Shown here one piece after another: positions 1-5,429 of a stretch of 5,429 bases of DNA. The position numbers were made by a program, and so were the translations under genes. Source of the stretch: Bifidobacterium breve (GTDB taxonomy: Bacteria; Bacteroidota; Bacteroidia; Chitinophagales; Chitinophagaceae); contig CALPJR020000080.1 of NCBI GenBank assembly GCA_943323935.2, forward strand, positions 1 through 5,429, read 5' to 3'. How positions within the stretch are numbered: position 1 is the first letter of the stretch; each line of letters opens with the position of its first letter. The notes beneath the pieces are model-generated. The model searched no databases. It saw only the letters and a list, made by a program, of their open reading frames with translations, and was not told the DNA's origin.

Positions 1-183
1 ATTGAAGAAGGGATTAGGAATAAGGAAATCAAGCCAATTGATGCGCCTACTGTGGTCCTTATATTTTTGCATGCAGTGAGTGGCATTGAAAGCTGGCACC
101 GTTCAACTAAAAAAATCAGCGCAGAGGAATTAGAACAAAATATGGTTGCTATTTTAATTGATGGCCTAAAGGCAAATAGTTAA
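1..183 (+). CDS. TetR/AcrR-family transcriptional regulator, C-terminal fragment
   Basis: An open frame enters from the left edge and ends at TAA 181-183, giving the last 60 residues of a protein; the start lies outside the window. The visible part is a helical ligand-binding/dimerisation type C-terminus: a hydrophobic helix (TVVLIFLHAVSGIESWHR), then the 'ISAEELEQNMVAILIDGLK' helix. This resembles the end of TetR regulators, where a helix with a G-x-E-x-W-(H/Y)-R motif is followed by 's-x-E-E-L' and a final helix ending in 'GL'. The DNA-binding helix-turn-helix would be in the missing N-terminus, so the family call rests on this tail alone. The target genes and ligand cannot be inferred. A hairpin terminator follows 36 bases after the stop, so this gene is transcriptionally separate from obgE. 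Confidence 0.62.
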   Translation: MEEGIRNKEIKPIDAPTVVLIFLHAVSGIESWHRSTKKISAEELEQNMVAILIDGLKANS

Positions 184-219
184 TCTAGTTCAGATTATCG
201 CGTTCTTGACAAAATAGAC

Positions 220-249
220 AAAAGCCTTCTCCAAAAGAGAAGGCTTTTT
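220..249 (+). terminator. Rho-independent terminator after the TetR-type gene
   Basis: A perfect 12-bp stem (220-231 paired with 237-248) with core AGCCTTCTC/GAGAAGGCT and a 5-nt loop CAAAA runs into a T-tract at 245-249. The upstream A's pair with the T's, so the hairpin could also work weakly on the other strand. It lies between the end of the regulator gene and the obgE promoter. Confidence 0.85.
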
Positions 250-255
250 ATTAAA

Positions 256-285
256 TTAAATTACCGCTTGATTGTAGTAACTTTG
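256..285 (+). promoter_or_regulatory. Probable Bacteroidota-type promoter of obgE
   Basis: TAACTTTG at 278-285 matches the Bacteroidota -7 consensus TAnnTTTG exactly. A TTA at 256-258 sits 19 bases upstream, where the -33 TTG element is expected, so that half matches only partly. The predicted RNA would start about a dozen bases before the GTG start codon. The leader is A-rich and has no clear Shine-Dalgarno sequence, which is usual in this phylum. The position just after a terminator supports the call, but it is a motif match only. Confidence 0.45.
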
Positions 286-304
286 TAGCTTATAAAAAGT
301 ACTA

Positions 305-1312
305 GTGTCAGAAAGAAATAATTTTATTGATTACATCCGAATTTTCGCCCATAGTGGTCATGGCGGAGCTGGTTGTAGGCATTTTCTCAGAAATAAATTA
401 ACTGCTAAGGGTGGACCTGATGGTGGCGATGGAGGAAGAGGTGGACATGTGATTCTAAGAGGTAATTCGCAACTTTGGACTTTATTGCATTTACGATATC
501 ATAAAAATGTATTGGCAAAGGATGGAGAGAATGGCTCTAAAAATAAATGTACCGGTAAGGATGGTGAAGATATAATTATTGAAGTGCCGTTAGGTACCAT
601 CGCAAGAGACGAGGAAACTGGTGCAATTGAAGCAGAGATTTTACATGATGGACAAGAAATAGTTTGGTTGAAAGGAGGACGAGGTGGATTGGGTAATTGT
701 AATTTTGCCACTCCAACACAACAGGTGCCTGAATATGCGCAACCTGGTGAAGATGGGATAGAAGGATGGAAACAAATTGAATTAAAAGTACTTGCAGACG
801 TTGGACTAGTAGGCTTCCCAAATGCAGGCAAGTCGACACTCTTGTCGGCCATTACCGCAGCAAAGCCAAAAATTGCCAACTACGCTTTTACTACATTGAC
901 ACCTCAGTTAGGTATGGTTGAATACCGAAACAATCGTTCATTCTGTATTGCAGATTTACCTGGAATCATCGAAGGTGCTGCCGAAGGAAAAGGTTTAGGA
1001 CATCGATTCTTAAGACATATCGAACGAAATGCAGTATTGCTTTTTTTAATTCCAGCAGACTCCAATGACCATAAAAAAGAATTCGAAATTTTAAAGAATG
1101 AGTTGAATGAATTCAATCCTGAATTATTACAAAAAGATTTTATCATCGCAATTAGTAAGACAGATTTATTAGATCAAGAATTAATGGATGCAATCGAAAA
1201 AGAATTACCAGAAAATATTCCGCATATTTTTATCTCTTCTGCAATTTCTAAAAACCTAATAGAACTAAAAGACTTATTGTGGCAGACACTGAATAAACCA
1301 GTCAACGCTTAA
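305..1312 (+). CDS. obgE: GTPase Obg (ObgE/CgtA), 50S ribosome-assembly GTPase
   Basis: This 335-residue protein is a complete Obg GTPase, a cytoplasmic P-loop GTPase that binds the large ribosomal subunit and links its assembly to growth and stringent signalling. Residues about 6-160 form the Obg fold, with glycine-rich turns (GHGGAG at 18-23, [14 protein letters not shown] at 35-48, KGGRGGLGN at 123-131). The G domain follows: P-loop GFPNAGKST (170-178), switch I with [11 protein letters not shown] (193-203), G3 DLPG (217-220), G4-like SKTD (284-287) and G5-like SSA (311-313). The usual G4 is NKxD. Ser in place of Asn is, from memory, common in Bacteroidota Obg. There is no C-terminal OCT domain, as expected for the short form in this phylum. 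The start is GTG at 305, chosen because the conserved 'NFIDYIRI' start of the family follows at once and a -7 promoter element ends 19 bases upstream. It converges with typA over a shared terminator. Confidence 0.97.
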
Positions 1313-1374
1313 ACACTTAAAAAATATTCAATACCATTTGATTGATTAAATAAGTATTTTAAGATAAAATGATG

Positions 1375-1422
1375 GTATAAAAAAAAGAGTCTCAATGAAA
1401 ATTGAGACTCTTTTTTTTATAC
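1375..1422. terminator. Bidirectional terminator between obgE and typA
   Basis: Arms 1375-1396 and 1401-1422 are a 22-bp perfect inverted repeat around a GAAA (GNRA-type) loop at 1397-1400. The GC-containing core GAGTCTCAAT/ATTGAGACTC is flanked by eight A's on the left and eight T's on the right, so each strand reads hairpin then U-tract. It lies 62 bases past the obgE stop and 14 bases past the typA stop, as expected for an element that ends both convergent transcripts. Confidence 0.92.
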
Positions 1423-1436
1423 TTCAAGCTAATAGC

Positions 1437-3239
1437 TTATTGAGAAGATTGTTTTGTTGCTTTATTACGCTCGTTCTCGTCCAATAAAGACTTACGCATA
1501 CGAACCGACTTTGGTGTCACCTCGATACACTCGTCAAATTGAATGTACTCCATACACTCTTCTAAAGTGTATTGTACTTTTGGCGTGATACGAACGCTAT
1601 CATCACTACCGCTCGCACGGTGGTTAGTTAATTTTTTCATCTCTACCGCATTGATATTCAAATCACCTGGCTTAATGTGTTCTGCTAATACTTGACCAGC
1701 ATATACTTCTTCACCTGGCTCGATAAAGAAACGACCTCTGTCTTGTAATTTATCAATTGAATAAGCAGTTGTTAAACCACCTGTTTTTGCGATCAATACA
1801 CCATTGCTTCTTCCAGGAATTGGCCCTTTCCAAGGCTTGTATTCATTGAAACGGTGCGCCATTACAGCTTCACCTGCTGTTTGTGTTAACATTTGAGAAC
1901 GCAATCCAATCAAACCTCTAGAAGGAATATCAAATTCTAAGTGTTGCATGGTACCCTTCGATTCCATGATCAACATTTCACCTTTCTTTTGAGTCACTAA
2001 GTCGATTACTTTACCGCTAAAATCTGCAGGTACATCTACTACTAATATTTCAAATGGCTCATGCTTCTTACCATCAATATCTTTTACTAAAACTTGTGGA
2101 TTGCCTACAGTTAATTCATATCCTTCACGACGCATAGTCTCTACCAATACACCTAAGTGTAAGATACCACGACCATACACCAAGAAGCTATCCGCACTAT
2201 CTGTTTCTTCTACACGTAATGCTAAATTCTTTTCAGTTTCTTTCATCAAACGATCACGAATATGTCGAGAGGTAACAAACTTTCCTTCCTTACCAAAGAA
2301 AGGAGAATTGTTAATACTAAATGTCATACTCATTGTAGGCTCGTCTACACTGATAACTGCTAATGCTTCAGGATTTTCTGGATCAGCAATGGTATCGCCA
2401 ATATTGAATTCTTCTAATCCAACAACAGCACATAAGTCACCAGAAACAACTTCTGTTACTTTACGCTTACCCATCCCTTCAAACACGTATAATTCTTTTA
2501 CTTTATTTTTTTTGATGCTGCCATCAGCTTGCACCAAAACAATATTTTGGTTTTCTTTGATGGTACCTCTTTCTACTTTTCCAATCGCAATACGACCTAA
2601 GAAGGTAGAATAATCTAAAGAGGTGATTTGCATTTGTGTATGTCCTTCCTTCACATCTGGACCTGGCACATATTTTAAGATGCCATCCATTAAAGGCGTG
2701 ATATCTTCGCATTGGGTTAATGACTCATTGAACCAGCCATTTTTTCCACTACCATAAAAAGTTGGGAAGTTCAATTGCTCTTCGGTAGCATCTAAGTTGA
2801 AGAACAATTCAAATACTGCATCGTGCACTTCGTCAGGACGACAGTTTTCTTTATCCACCTTATTGATAATTACAATTGGTTTTAAATTCAATTGCAATGC
2901 TTTTTGTAATACGAAACGAGTTTGTGGCATTGGACCTTCAAAAGCATCCACCAACAAACAAACACCGTCTGCCATCTTCAAAACACGCTCTACCTCACCA
3001 CCAAAATCAGAGTGACCTGGGGTATCGATGACGTTTATTTTTACACCTTTATAGGTTACTGAAGCGTTCTTACTTAAGATAGTAATACCTCTTTCACGCT
3101 CCAACTCGTTGCTATCCATGATTAAGTCACCAGTCTCCTGGTTGTCTCTGAATACTTTAGTTGCGTGTAATATTTTGTCTACCAAGGTTGTTTTACCGTG
3201 GTCAACGTGCGCGATAATCGCGATGTTTCTTATTTCCAT
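1437..3239 (-). CDS. typA: Translational GTPase TypA/BipA
   Basis: This is a full-length (600 aa) member of the EF-G/LepA-like translational GTPases. BipA/TypA binds the 70S ribosome at the factor site, helps late 50S assembly, and matters most at low temperature or under stress. The GTPase domain is intact: G1 AHVDHGKT (10-17), G2 RERGIT (48-53), G3 DTPGH (72-76), G4 NKVD (126-129). A beta-barrel domain II spans about 200-290. EF-G-III-like and EF-G-V-like domains follow (GRGILHLGVLVETMRREG at 357-374; PSRGLIGLRSQMLT at 439-452). The BipA-specific C-terminal domain spans about 475-590, with PGRSNGVLI and NHRASGSDD, the loop region tied to ribosome contacts. The ATG at 3237-3239 gives the canonical 'MEIRNIAIIAHVDHGKTTL' beginning. 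A strong -7 promoter match lies 17 bases upstream, so typA can be expressed without the gene before it. No truncation or missing catalytic residue is seen. Confidence 0.98.
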   Translation of the reverse strand: MEIRNIAIIAHVDHGKTTLVDKILHATKVFRDNQETGDLIMDSNELERERGITILSKNASVTYKGVKINVIDTPGHSDFGGEVERVLKMADGVCLLVDAFEGPMPQTRFVLQKALQLNLKPIVIINKVDKENCRPDEVHDAVFELFFNLDATEEQLNFPTFYGSGKNGWFNESLTQCEDITPLMDGILKYVPGPDVKEGHTQMQITSLDYSTFLGRIAIGKVERGTIKENQNIVLVQADGSIKKNKVKELYVFEGMGKRKVTEVVSGDLCAVVGLEEFNIGDTIADPENPEALAVISVDEPTMSMTFSINNSPFFGKEGKFVTSRHIRDRLMKETEKNLALRVEETDSADSFLVYGRGILHLGVLVETMRREGYELTVGNPQVLVKDIDGKKHEPFEILVVDVPADFSGKVIDLVTQKKGEMLIMESKGTMQHLEFDIPSRGLIGLRSQMLTQTAGEAVMAHRFNEYKPWKGPIPGRSNGVLIAKTGGLTTAYSIDKLQDRGRFFIEPGEEVYAGQVLAEHIKPGDLNINAVEMKKLTNHRASGSDDSVRITPKVQYTLEECMEYIQFDECIEVTPKSVRMRKSLLDENERNKATKQSSQ

Positions 3240-3256
3240 GTACTGTTTTGAGGGTG

Positions 3257-3264
3257 CAAAGGTA
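3257..3264 (-). promoter_or_regulatory. Probable -7 element of the typA promoter
   Basis: On the minus strand this reads TACCTTTG, an exact match to the Bacteroidota TAnnTTTG element, ending 17 bases before the typA ATG. The expected -33 position falls in a T-run. A clean TTG occurs at 24 bases' spacing, longer than usual, so the upstream half is weak. It lies in the 76-base gap between the membrane-protein gene and typA. Confidence 0.5.
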
Positions 3265-3315
3265 CGCCGTTTACAGTCCTAAAAAAAACAATTGGGAAAA
3301 AAGGATGGTTAAGCT

Positions 3316-4410
3316 TTAGATACGGATATATATTTTAAATTTATCTAATACATAACCTAATAGCCAGCAAAGCAACATGAAGGCAATAGCAAAGAAAAGA
3401 GATCCCCAATAGGGGTTAAAATGGGTGAACCCTAGTTGATACAACCAGTCAAATGCACTTGCATAACCAGCAGGTCCATTTAATAAATTCAAGCATACAA
3501 GGAAAATTTCTGAAAAAAGGTAGATCGCAAGTGGATTTTTGCCAAAAATTTCAAAAAACCTAGAAAATTGATGTTGGCGATGGATGTCTACCCTATAAAT
3601 GATGGTTGCCAATATGATCATATTTAATCCAATTGTAAGCACCACAAAAGAACTAGTCCAAAGTTTTTTGTTGATAGGAAATTCAAAATCCCACATAAAG
3701 GCTAAGAATAAGAAGCCAGCACCCCACATAAATAAGTGTGTTAACCCTTCATAGGTTTTCCCACTTGTTTGTACAAAGTTACCAATGATGAAGCCCACTA
3801 AAATATTTACAATCGCAGGCAAAGTGCTAAGCAATCCTTCTGGATCAAAAGCGATACCCTCACCATGGTATAAATGGTTTGGTCCGAGCAAGTAAAGATC
3901 CAACCTTAAAACCGCATTTCCTGTTAAACTGAATGGATCTCCAGATTGGCCAAAACGAACAGCGAGATACCAATAGGCCAATAACAGCACGGCAGTCAAA
4001 ACCTTGACCACTCTTTCATGCATAAAATGTGCAATCAAAGCTGCAAAAAAATATGCAAGTGCAATACGTTGTAAAACACCAAAAATTCTAGTATCCTGCA
4101 AGTCCCCTGTGAATGGGAACCAGTACATTAAAAAACCTAGGGCAAATAAAATAAAACTACGTTTGAAGATGGCAAGAAGCACTTTAGTTCTTCCTGTCTT
4201 TTCTAAATTGGGTAAAACAAAACTAAGTGAGTTGCCTACTGCAAATAAAAAGGATGGGAAAACTAAATCGGTTGGTGTAAATCCATGCCAACTTGCATGT
4301 CTAAAAGGTGCAAAAGTATGCAATGCGTCTCCTGGTGTATTGACAATGATCATCAAGCAAATTGTCATACCGCGAAAAACATCCAATGATAAAAACCTTT
4401 CTTTATTCAT
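3316..4410 (-). CDS. DUF5009/HGSNAT-like multi-pass membrane protein, putative acyltransferase
   Basis: This 364-residue inner-membrane protein belongs to the heparan-alpha-glucosaminide N-acetyltransferase-like (HGSNAT_cat/DUF5009, NagX-related) group. The signature is at the N-terminus: RFLSLDVFRGMTI (5-17), then HASWHGFTPTDLVFPSFLFAVG (38-59), later QRIALAY (114-120) and FGKNPLAIY (289-297). About ten membrane segments are visible, near residues 12-26, 46-66, 78-98, 113-130, 134-153, 197-215, 223-241, 252-272, 292-312 and 335-356. The eukaryotic enzyme moves acetyl groups from acetyl-CoA across a membrane to glucosamine. Bacterial members are often linked with amino-sugar or glycan use, but the substrate here is unknown and no glycan genes are in view. 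The ATG at 4408-4410 places the family motif right at the N-terminus. The gene is co-oriented with typA (76-base gap, typA has its own promoter) and divergent from the hydrolase gene. Confidence 0.85.
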   Translation of the reverse strand: MNKERFLSLDVFRGMTICLMIIVNTPGDALHTFAPFRHASWHGFTPTDLVFPSFLFAVGNSLSFVLPNLEKTGRTKVLLAIFKRSFILFALGFLMYWFPFTGDLQDTRIFGVLQRIALAYFFAALIAHFMHERVVKVLTAVLLLAYWYLAVRFGQSGDPFSLTGNAVLRLDLYLLGPNHLYHGEGIAFDPEGLLSTLPAIVNILVGFIIGNFVQTSGKTYEGLTHLFMWGAGFLFLAFMWDFEFPINKKLWTSSFVVLTIGLNMIILATIIYRVDIHRQHQFSRFFEIFGKNPLAIYLFSEIFLVCLNLLNGPAGYASAFDWLYQLGFTHFNPYWGSLFFAIAFMLLCWLLGYVLDKFKIYIRI

Positions 4411-4468
4411 AACTGCAATTTAGTGGATTTAGATCAGCAAAATATTTTTTTAAGGCCCCCAAAATAAC

Positions 4469-4476
4469 TAGCTTTA
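4469..4476 (+). promoter_or_regulatory. Weak candidate -7 element for the hydrolase gene
   Basis: TAGCTTTA matches seven of eight positions of TAnnTTTG and ends 14 bases before the ATG at 4491, similar spacing to the obgE and typA elements. The 80-base divergent gap (4411-4490) is AT-rich and has no clear -33 element. I see no good TAnnTTTG match on the opposite strand for the membrane-protein gene. Confidence 0.25.
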
Positions 4477-4490
4477 AAAAAAATAACCAA

Positions 4491-4858
4491 ATGCGTATAC
4501 TAAAAATAGTCATTCTCTCCTTTTTTGCTTTAATTGTTATTTATTTTTTAGGCCCTAAACCTCCAAAGCCAGTATTGAATGATGTCTTACCAACTGTGGC
4601 AAGCATCAATACCCTTGATACTTATATCACATCGATGGAAGCCCCATATAAGATTAAACCCAATAATGAAGCTAAAATTATTTGGGCAGACAGTAGCAAA
4701 ACACAAACAGATTATGCGATTGTTTATTTACATGGATTTAGTGCCAGTCAAATGGAAGGCGACCCAGTGCACCAAAATATTGCTAAACAATTTCATTGTA
4801 ATTTATATTTAGCAAGATTAGCAGAGCATGGTATTGATACCACCGAAGACCTGATGAA
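4491..4858 (+). CDS. Membrane-anchored alpha/beta hydrolase, 3' end lost at the telomere junction
   Basis: The first 122-123 codons of a bacterial alpha/beta-hydrolase-like protein are present. Residues 4-21 form a hydrophobic N-terminal anchor or signal segment followed by a proline-rich stretch (GPKPPKP). The beta-strand plus oxyanion motif AIVYLHGFSAS is at 76-86, with MEGDPVHQNIAKQF and NLYLARLAEHGIDTTEDLMN after it. This layout is typical of a Bacteroidota hydrolase of roughly 300+ residues. The nucleophile elbow (G-x-S-x-G), the acid and the catalytic His would lie further on and are missing. The bacterial sequence stops within the Asn123 codon (4857-4859), where C4A4 telomere begins. 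Reading straight on adds 23 meaningless residues up to TGA at 4929-4931, encoded by telomere and ciliate leader. I call this a gene cut by the chimeric junction, not natural decay: the visible part has no frameshift or internal stop. Confidence 0.78.
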
Positions 4859-4878
4859 CCCCAAAACCCCAAAACCCC
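4859..4878 (+). repeat. Left macronuclear telomere, C4A4C4A4C4
   Basis: Exactly 20 nt: CCCC 4859-4862, AAAA 4863-4866, CCCC 4867-4870, AAAA 4871-4874, CCCC 4875-4878. This is the C-rich 5' strand of a chromosome end pointing left. The two A's just before it (4857-4858) could be the inner part of another A4 block or the bacterial Asn codon, so the breakpoint is uncertain by a few bases. Confidence 0.95.
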
Positions 4879-4923
4879 ACTTTTTTGAGATAATATATAT
4901 TAATATTTTGCGGATAAAAAGAA
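4879..4923 (+). promoter_or_regulatory. Subtelomeric leader of the NTF2 gene with TATA-like tract
   Basis: This 45-base stretch between telomere and start codon must hold the promoter and 5' UTR. It is strongly AT-rich, with a TATATAT run at 4894-4900, 23 bases before the ATG, and an A-rich sequence (AAAAAGAA) right before the ATG. No other motif is clear. The TATA-like assignment is only a composition match, since A/T-rich leaders are general in these chromosomes. Confidence 0.35.
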
Positions 4924-5286
4924 ATGTCTGATTTCAATGAAATTGGTAAACAGTTTGTTACTCACTTCTACAACACTTTTAATCTCCCGAAAGAGAACTT
5001 GATACAACTATTTTCGGATCAATCAATGCTGACTTTTGAAGGGGAGTAATTCCTTGGGTAAAATTCCATTTATGAAAAGTTAAGTAGTTTTGGTAAAGTT
5101 GATCACTAAGTGAATACTCTTGATTGCCAGCCTACTACAAACAATGGCATACTAGCATTCGTATCAGGATAGCTTTCAATTGATGGAGGATAGCCAATGA
5201 TGTTCACTGAAGTTTTCCATTTACAACAGGGAGGTACTTAAGGGTATTTCGTGTTGAACGATGTTTTTAGACTCAATTTAGCATGA
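4924..5286 (+). CDS. NTF2: Nuclear transport factor 2 (NTF2), ciliate nuclear code
   Basis: With TAA and TAG read as Gln and TGA as stop, ATG 4924 to TGA 5284-5286 encodes 120 residues along the whole NTF2 family (human about 127). NTF2 is a homodimer that carries Ran-GDP into the nucleus by binding FxFG nucleoporins. Matching blocks are IGKQFVTHFYNTF (7-19), LTFEGEQFLG (36-45), EKLSSF (52-57), TLDCQP (65-70), VSGQLSID (80-87), FTEVFHL (94-100) and NDVFRLNL (112-119). They align with the human EGQQF, EKLSSL, DHQP, VVGQL and NDMFRLAL. Six reassigned codons give Q42, Q46, Q62 (TAA), Q83, Q90 (TAG) and Q106 (TAA). Q42 and Q83 fall where human NTF2 also has Gln. Glu39 corresponds to the Ran-contacting Glu42. 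Human Trp41 is Phe38 here. Asp87 matches Asp92, but the Asp94 site has become a Gly-Gly-Gln loop. No intron is needed. The standard code would give only fragments. Confidence 0.94.
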
Positions 5287-5409
5287 GAGAACGGCAAATA
5301 TTATATTAGAATTTAAGAGTGTTAACCAAAAATTGATTTATAGTAGATTTTATAAAATAGATTAATTGGCTGGTTTGATTTATATATTATAAATTAATTT
5401 CTTAAAAAA
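5287..5409 (+). other. 3' trailer of the NTF2 nanochromosome
   Basis: These 123 bases from the TGA stop to the right telomere are very AT-rich and contain no further gene. A small AT-only hairpin is possible (ATTTATA 5378-5384 with TATAAAT 5388-5394), but such matches are expected by chance at this composition. The region must include the 3' UTR and polyadenylation site. No exact AATAAA was seen. Confidence 0.6.
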
Positions 5410-5429
5410 GGGGTTTTGGGGTTTTGGGG
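5410..5429 (+). repeat. Right macronuclear telomere, G4T4G4T4G4
   Basis: Exactly 20 nt: GGGG 5410-5413, TTTT 5414-5417, GGGG 5418-5421, TTTT 5422-5425, GGGG 5426-5429, the G-rich 3' strand of the chromosome end. The window stops at its last base, so the contig end coincides with the natural chromosome end. Its length equals that of the left telomere. Confidence 0.95.

Follow-up and report, generated by a model that had tools for sequence, protein, structure and literature searches.

The stretch of DNA analysed here (the window, 5,429 bp) carries the make-up of a one-gene ciliate chromosome beside 4858 bp of bacterial DNA, and the two were in all likelihood joined artificially, probably during library preparation. 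Positions 1-4858 are chromosomal DNA of a Sediminibacterium-like bacterium (Chitinophagaceae), and the remaining 571 bases form a ciliate-type stretch. An earlier note on this DNA had described a whole ciliate chromosome attached to bacterial DNA. The first part of this description stands, as the stretch has the make-up of a nanochromosome; the attachment most plausibly reflects a chimeric contig and not biology.

The ciliate-type stretch is bounded by two inverted 20-nt C4A4/G4T4 telomeres, as the earlier note had reported. The left one (4859-4878, forward strand) is an exact C4A4C4A4C4 20-mer; the right one (5410-5429, reverse strand) is also an exact 20-mer, and its outer tip is the window end. 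Dinucleotide shuffling of the sequence yielded no match to the 20-mer in any of 200 shuffles, and the telomere pair was the first and longest among the five inverted pairs listed for 4700-5429. The 531-bp interior between the telomeres has a G+C content of 30% overall and 35% in its coding part. On the forward strand, the gene is preceded by 45 nt of 5' subtelomeric non-coding DNA (4879-4923, 18% G+C) and followed by 123 nt of 3' non-coding DNA (5287-5409, 19% G+C). Inverted 20-bp telomeres at both ends, one complete gene and short AT-rich flanks, the features expected of a nanochromosome, are all present.

The gene (4924-5286, forward strand) consists of 120 codons and a TGA stop when read with translation table 6, in which TAA and TAG encode Gln. 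Six in-frame TAA/TAG codons are read as Gln in this frame and no intron is required. The 120-residue product covers positions 1-116 of the 116 positions of the Pfam NTF2 model (PF02136; E = 8.2e-27), corresponding to a full-length domain, and matches NTF2 structures in the PDB, the best being 1zo2 (1.2e-31). Proteins of the NTF2 family transport Ran-GDP back into the nucleus; the product in the ciliate is presumably NTF2, with nothing unusual about it. Alternative ciliate codes were set aside as unnecessary, since TAA/TAG as Gln with TGA as stop already yields a full NTF2. With the bacterial code, no open reading frame of at least 60 amino acids is found within 4932-5429. These results agree with the earlier note, which had recognized one NTF2 gene in a ciliate code and had predicted that an annotation with the bacterial code would miss it.

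We considered the possibility that 4859-5429 is of bacterial or phage origin. Yet, blastn with 11-base words gave no match to this stretch among 50,697 phage and 72,556 plasmid records, so that the phage or bacterial homologues that the earlier note had named as evidence against its reading did not appear in these collections. De novo addition of a telomere onto bacterial DNA was also rejected for the window, because an entire gene and a second telomere come after the first telomere.

Among the telomeric repeats of Stylonychia (S. lemnae), the C4A4C4A4C4 20-mer is named as the most common in PMC4122937, TAA and TAG are given as Gln codons for Oxytricha and Stylonychia in PMC7858049, and the shortest Oxytricha nanochromosome with a known protein is put at 469 bp minus telomeres in PMC3558436. 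As far as these sources describe them, the nanochromosomes of both genera share with the window the telomere 20-mer, a single gene with short flanks and the Gln code, and the 531 bp of the window without telomeres fall within the size range; unlike them, the window copy is attached at one end to bacterial DNA. Halteria grandinella, according to PMC7858049, has [C4A4]2-3C4 telomeres, TAA/TAG as Gln, mostly single-gene chromosomes and very short flanks. It resembles the window in telomere type, in the Gln code and in having one gene with short flanks, whereas the G+C content given for its assembly is 43% (30% in the window interior) and its stop codon mostly lies about 63 bp from the telomere (123 nt in the window).

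A protein search with the NTF2 of the window (P0001) retrieved 35 relatives. The best one, P0002 (76% identity), belongs to taxid 197538, Strombidium inclinatum (Spirotrichea, Oligotrichia), and is the sole match with an organism name. The comparison of their contigs covered length: the longest contig, stated for 33 relatives, measured less than 1 kb in 24 of them and 1.1-3.4 kb in the other 9. P0003-P0006 are 119-120 residues long, and their longest contigs, at 530-587 bp, are of the length that a free nanochromosome would be expected to have. Two partial proteins are closer to the window: P0009 (90% identity, from residue 35 onward, 567-bp contig) and P0012 (93% identity, residues 1-82, 564-bp contig), the latter terminating just ahead of the in-frame TAG that forms codon 83 of the window gene. 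A tree built from 20 of the 36 proteins grouped the window protein with these two partial sequences, with support values of 100/98. The nine relatives on contigs of 1.1-3.4 kb are P0007, P0008, P0010, P0016, P0019, P0020, P0023, P0029 and P0033; these contigs exceed a one-gene NTF2 chromosome and may represent multi-gene chromosomes, other ciliates or further hybrids. The same protein search in the viral contigs gave three candidate stretches, none of which was confirmed; in the 12 nearest metagenome-assembled genomes (MAGs) it returned nothing, a result that is uninformative since the search had no positive control.

Taken together, the telomeres, the single gene, the code, the AT-rich flanks and the relatives support the conclusion that 4859-5429 is a complete spirotrich-type nanochromosome. 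The earlier note's assignment to a spirotrich-type one-gene chromosome is borne out by the telomere, the code and the flanks, by the best relative being from S. inclinatum and by the sub-kilobase contigs of 24 of the 33 relatives. A hypotrich affiliation is probable from telomere and code; it is not established, because the sole organism-named match is an oligotrich. Taken by itself, the nanochromosome is genuine: a new but ordinary case of a familiar kind.

The bacterial part contains, in order, the 3' end of a gene for a TetR-family regulator, truncated at the start of the window (1-183, forward strand; Pfam TetR_C_24, 3.6e-06, with no match in an NCBIfam search), the Obg/CgtA GTPase gene obg (305-1312, forward; NCBIfam, 7.8e-123), the TypA/BipA GTPase gene typA (1437-3239, reverse; NCBIfam, 1.8e-264), a gene for a NagX/HGSNAT-like membrane acyltransferase (3316-4410, reverse; Pfam HGSNAT_cat, 2.8e-07) and the 5' part of an alpha/beta-hydrolase gene (4491-4858, forward). 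The acyltransferase scored 168 bits (3.1e-49) with the NagX model, below the model cut-off of 480. The hydrolase piece had no family match in Pfam or NCBIfam and was named from its intact relative in locus L002, which matches Hydrolase_4 at 4.5e-07. The 4.86 kb of adjoining Bacteroidota-like genes claimed by the earlier note are thus recovered, with correct coordinates, as obg, typA, the NagX/HGSNAT-like gene and the truncated hydrolase gene. The three closest loci, all from MAGs, are 92-94% identical to the window by blastn: L001 at 94.1% across 221-4858, and L002 and L006 at 92.8% and 92.3% over 1-4858. The records of L001-L012 are labelled Bacteroidetes, Chitinophagia, Chitinophaga pinensis or Sediminibacterium, and from the sample labels and the genus we read the matching MAGs as being of freshwater origin.

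The junction lies between 4858 and 4859, where bacterial DNA directly meets the left telomere at its outer tip. It is gapless, as the window contains no N characters, and it breaks the hydrolase frame in codon 123; in the 14 relatives in which it was followed to its stop codon, the gene has 326-328 codons. In the 15 relatives aligned base by base, the next bases are TT, TC or CC, followed by the rest of the hydrolase gene, and therefore at most 2 nt (0-2) could be shared with the telomere, as judged from the relatives and not from the source strain. Among the best 80 of the 103 bacterial loci found, the hydrolase frame continues past the junction position in all 80, for at least 204 further codons to a stop in 78; in L001 it runs for 159 codons and in L018 for 3 before the contig ends. 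No blastn alignment with these best 80 of 103 loci extends beyond 4860, and none of the 80 contains the telomere 20-mer, which is absent at the same site in the relatives. Being from other strains and species, these 80 loci do not demonstrate that the gene is intact in the source population. At the other end, the window stops exactly at the outer tip of the right telomere, with no bacterial DNA past it, so that the nanochromosome has a bacterial flank on one side only.

Comparable hybrids, joined to unrelated partners, were found in other sequences (L094, L096, L097/L098 and L103). A collection of viral contigs scanned for the 20-mer yielded 16 stretches, 15 of which carry the telomere at a contig end; in L087 it is internal and followed by degenerate repeats. 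The boundary of the ciliate DNA was marked only in L094 and L096 among these 16. The contig of L094 (1-5379) starts with a 905-bp stretch that has a telomere at each end and whose right tip is directly joined to foreign DNA containing two pieces of a phage-type NAD-dependent ligase gene and a DnaB helicase gene (phage families). The G+C content is 33% inside the two-telomere stretch and 43% beyond it, and the ciliate frame stays open for 173 codons when translated with table 6. L094 is like the window in that a two-telomere stretch is fused tip-first to foreign DNA; it differs in its phage-like partner and in that a Pfam search of its ciliate frame gave no match. L096 is a contig of 60% G+C with a terminase gene, in which the terminal telomere is preceded by 75 nt at 23% G+C; the lowest value among 8784 other 75-nt stretches is 36%.

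The two remaining hybrids come from MAGs. The 20-mer was present in one of the 12 nearest MAGs searched, the one nearest to the window (L097, 1-1520, and L098, to 3018; contig C195 of G001), where the telomere stands at the contig end. The secA gene of this contig, identified with Pfam, was compared with L099-L102 and ceases to align with each of these four loci at 71-73 nt from the telomere end. The three loci inspected beyond the break continue there with other DNA; L102 belongs to the same MAG, as a second secA-like copy. The G+C content of the 51 nt that precede the telomere is 37%, as compared with 40% elsewhere in L098, and this stretch is not clearly AT-rich. This contig is probably chimeric. 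One of 394 genomes of the family also contained the 20-mer (L103, 1334-1731; contig C241 of G188). L103 carries genes for HepT, a nucleotidyltransferase and DUF5615. The DUF5615 gene breaks off at the outer tip of a C4A4 telomere 28 nt in length, and the 203 nt between this telomere and the contig end have a G+C content of 26%. C4A4C4A4C4 is identical when reversed, which makes the control columns of both the 12-MAG and the 394-genome scans uninformative.

We infer from this pattern both the artefact and the library-preparation step. The joins are at the telomere tip in the window, L094 and L103 and at an inner point in L096 and L098; such tip and inner joins, the unrelated partners and the lack of usable overlap at the junction fit a blunt ligation of end-repaired DNA. 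The sample would have held very many short linear macronuclear molecules of a ciliate, this chromosome among them. End repair would have stripped their single-stranded 3' tails, leaving blunt 20-bp ends, one of which would have been ligated to the end of a bacterial fragment that shearing had, by chance, broken inside the hydrolase gene. The contig would then stop at the far telomere because the molecule ends there. Nanochromosomes are short and very abundant, and the small ones would pass shearing uncut. The 3' overhangs of Oxytricha and Stylonychia measure 16 nt and are of a kind that end repair removes; a 20-bp telomere lacking the 3' tail is consistent with this step. Ligation appears likelier than template switching during amplification, a close variant, neither in vitro route being proved. 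Several points count against an artefact. MAGs positive for the telomere are rare (1 of the 12 nearest, 1 of the 394 genomes of the family), and a chimera requires a copy number sufficient for assembly; in addition, the ciliate frame of L094 lacks a Pfam match, and AT-richness is not clear ahead of the L098 telomere.

A join at the telomere tip would equally be expected from end joining within a cell, and we therefore considered that ingested bacterial DNA had been end-joined to the nanochromosome inside the ciliate, in a food vacuole or in the macronucleus. The end-to-end junction with at most 2 nt of overlap agrees with this, as does the stable maintenance by Oxytricha of injected linear chromosomes described in PMC6778790. 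Yet, the left end of the bacterial DNA has no telomere in the window (the source contig may extend further), and library ligation gives the same junction without calling for a new process. Furthermore, one macronuclear assembly reports no nanochromosomes with bacterial sequence (PMC8455672), a negative result that weighs little, since its reads are described as having been cleaned of bacteria beforehand. We regard joining in the ciliate as very unlikely. We attach equally little probability to the broader proposal that the hybrids reflect a natural capture, in which nanochromosomes become tip-joined to the DNA of eaten bacteria and phages and feed prey DNA into the macronucleus. A literature search on ciliate telomeres and chimeric contigs in metagenome-assembled genomes found no paper.

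A mis-join by the assembler, i.e. a false link between two contigs made in the graph or during scaffolding with no chimeric molecule behind it, also appears highly improbable. Hybrids were seen in several separate assemblies, in line with such an error. However, the junction is free of N and allows an overlap of no more than 2 nt, and its position at the exact tip of the telomere leaves an assembler no k-mer overlap with the bacterial DNA. Natural transfer, with insertion of a whole nanochromosome into a Sediminibacterium-like chromosome and disruption of the hydrolase gene, is extremely improbable: the two DNAs do follow each other directly in the window, and a junction within a gene would fit a random insertion, yet the far flank is absent, the telomere is found in none of the best 80 of 103 loci, the six in-frame TAA/TAG codons would truncate the protein in a bacterium, and telomere junctions exist with phage and other bacterial partners too.

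These findings amount to a warning more than a discovery: in public MAG and viral collections, ciliate nanochromosomes, whole or partial, occur joined to contigs of bacteria and phages and can be mistaken for horizontal transfer or for viral genome ends. A C4A4C4A4C4 20-mer at a contig terminus provides a simple flag for such hybrids. One to three proteins were scanned per viral-collection stretch, and PHROGs, run on 15 of the 16 loci, gave a match in all 15; in L091 and L095 the first protein had no match and the second did, weakly in L095 (1.4e-06). Some matches are to cell-type enzymes (GroEL in L082, ribonucleotide reductase in L084, polymerase in L087, kinase in L091, UvdE in L093) and are no proof of phage, because cells also have these enzymes. 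More telling phage matches are terminase (L081, L090 and L096), baseplate wedge (L085) and primase/helicase (L089). These five contigs are likely hybrids ending in C4A4C4A4C4 that could pass as natural viral ends. Of note, L086 (1-4121), also filed as viral, carries a telomere of 36 nt at each end along with a topoisomerase II gene, identified by a Pfam scan only, and looks like a whole, unjoined ciliate nanochromosome misfiled as a virus. Its telomeres and the 28-nt one of L103 depart from the 20-nt length.
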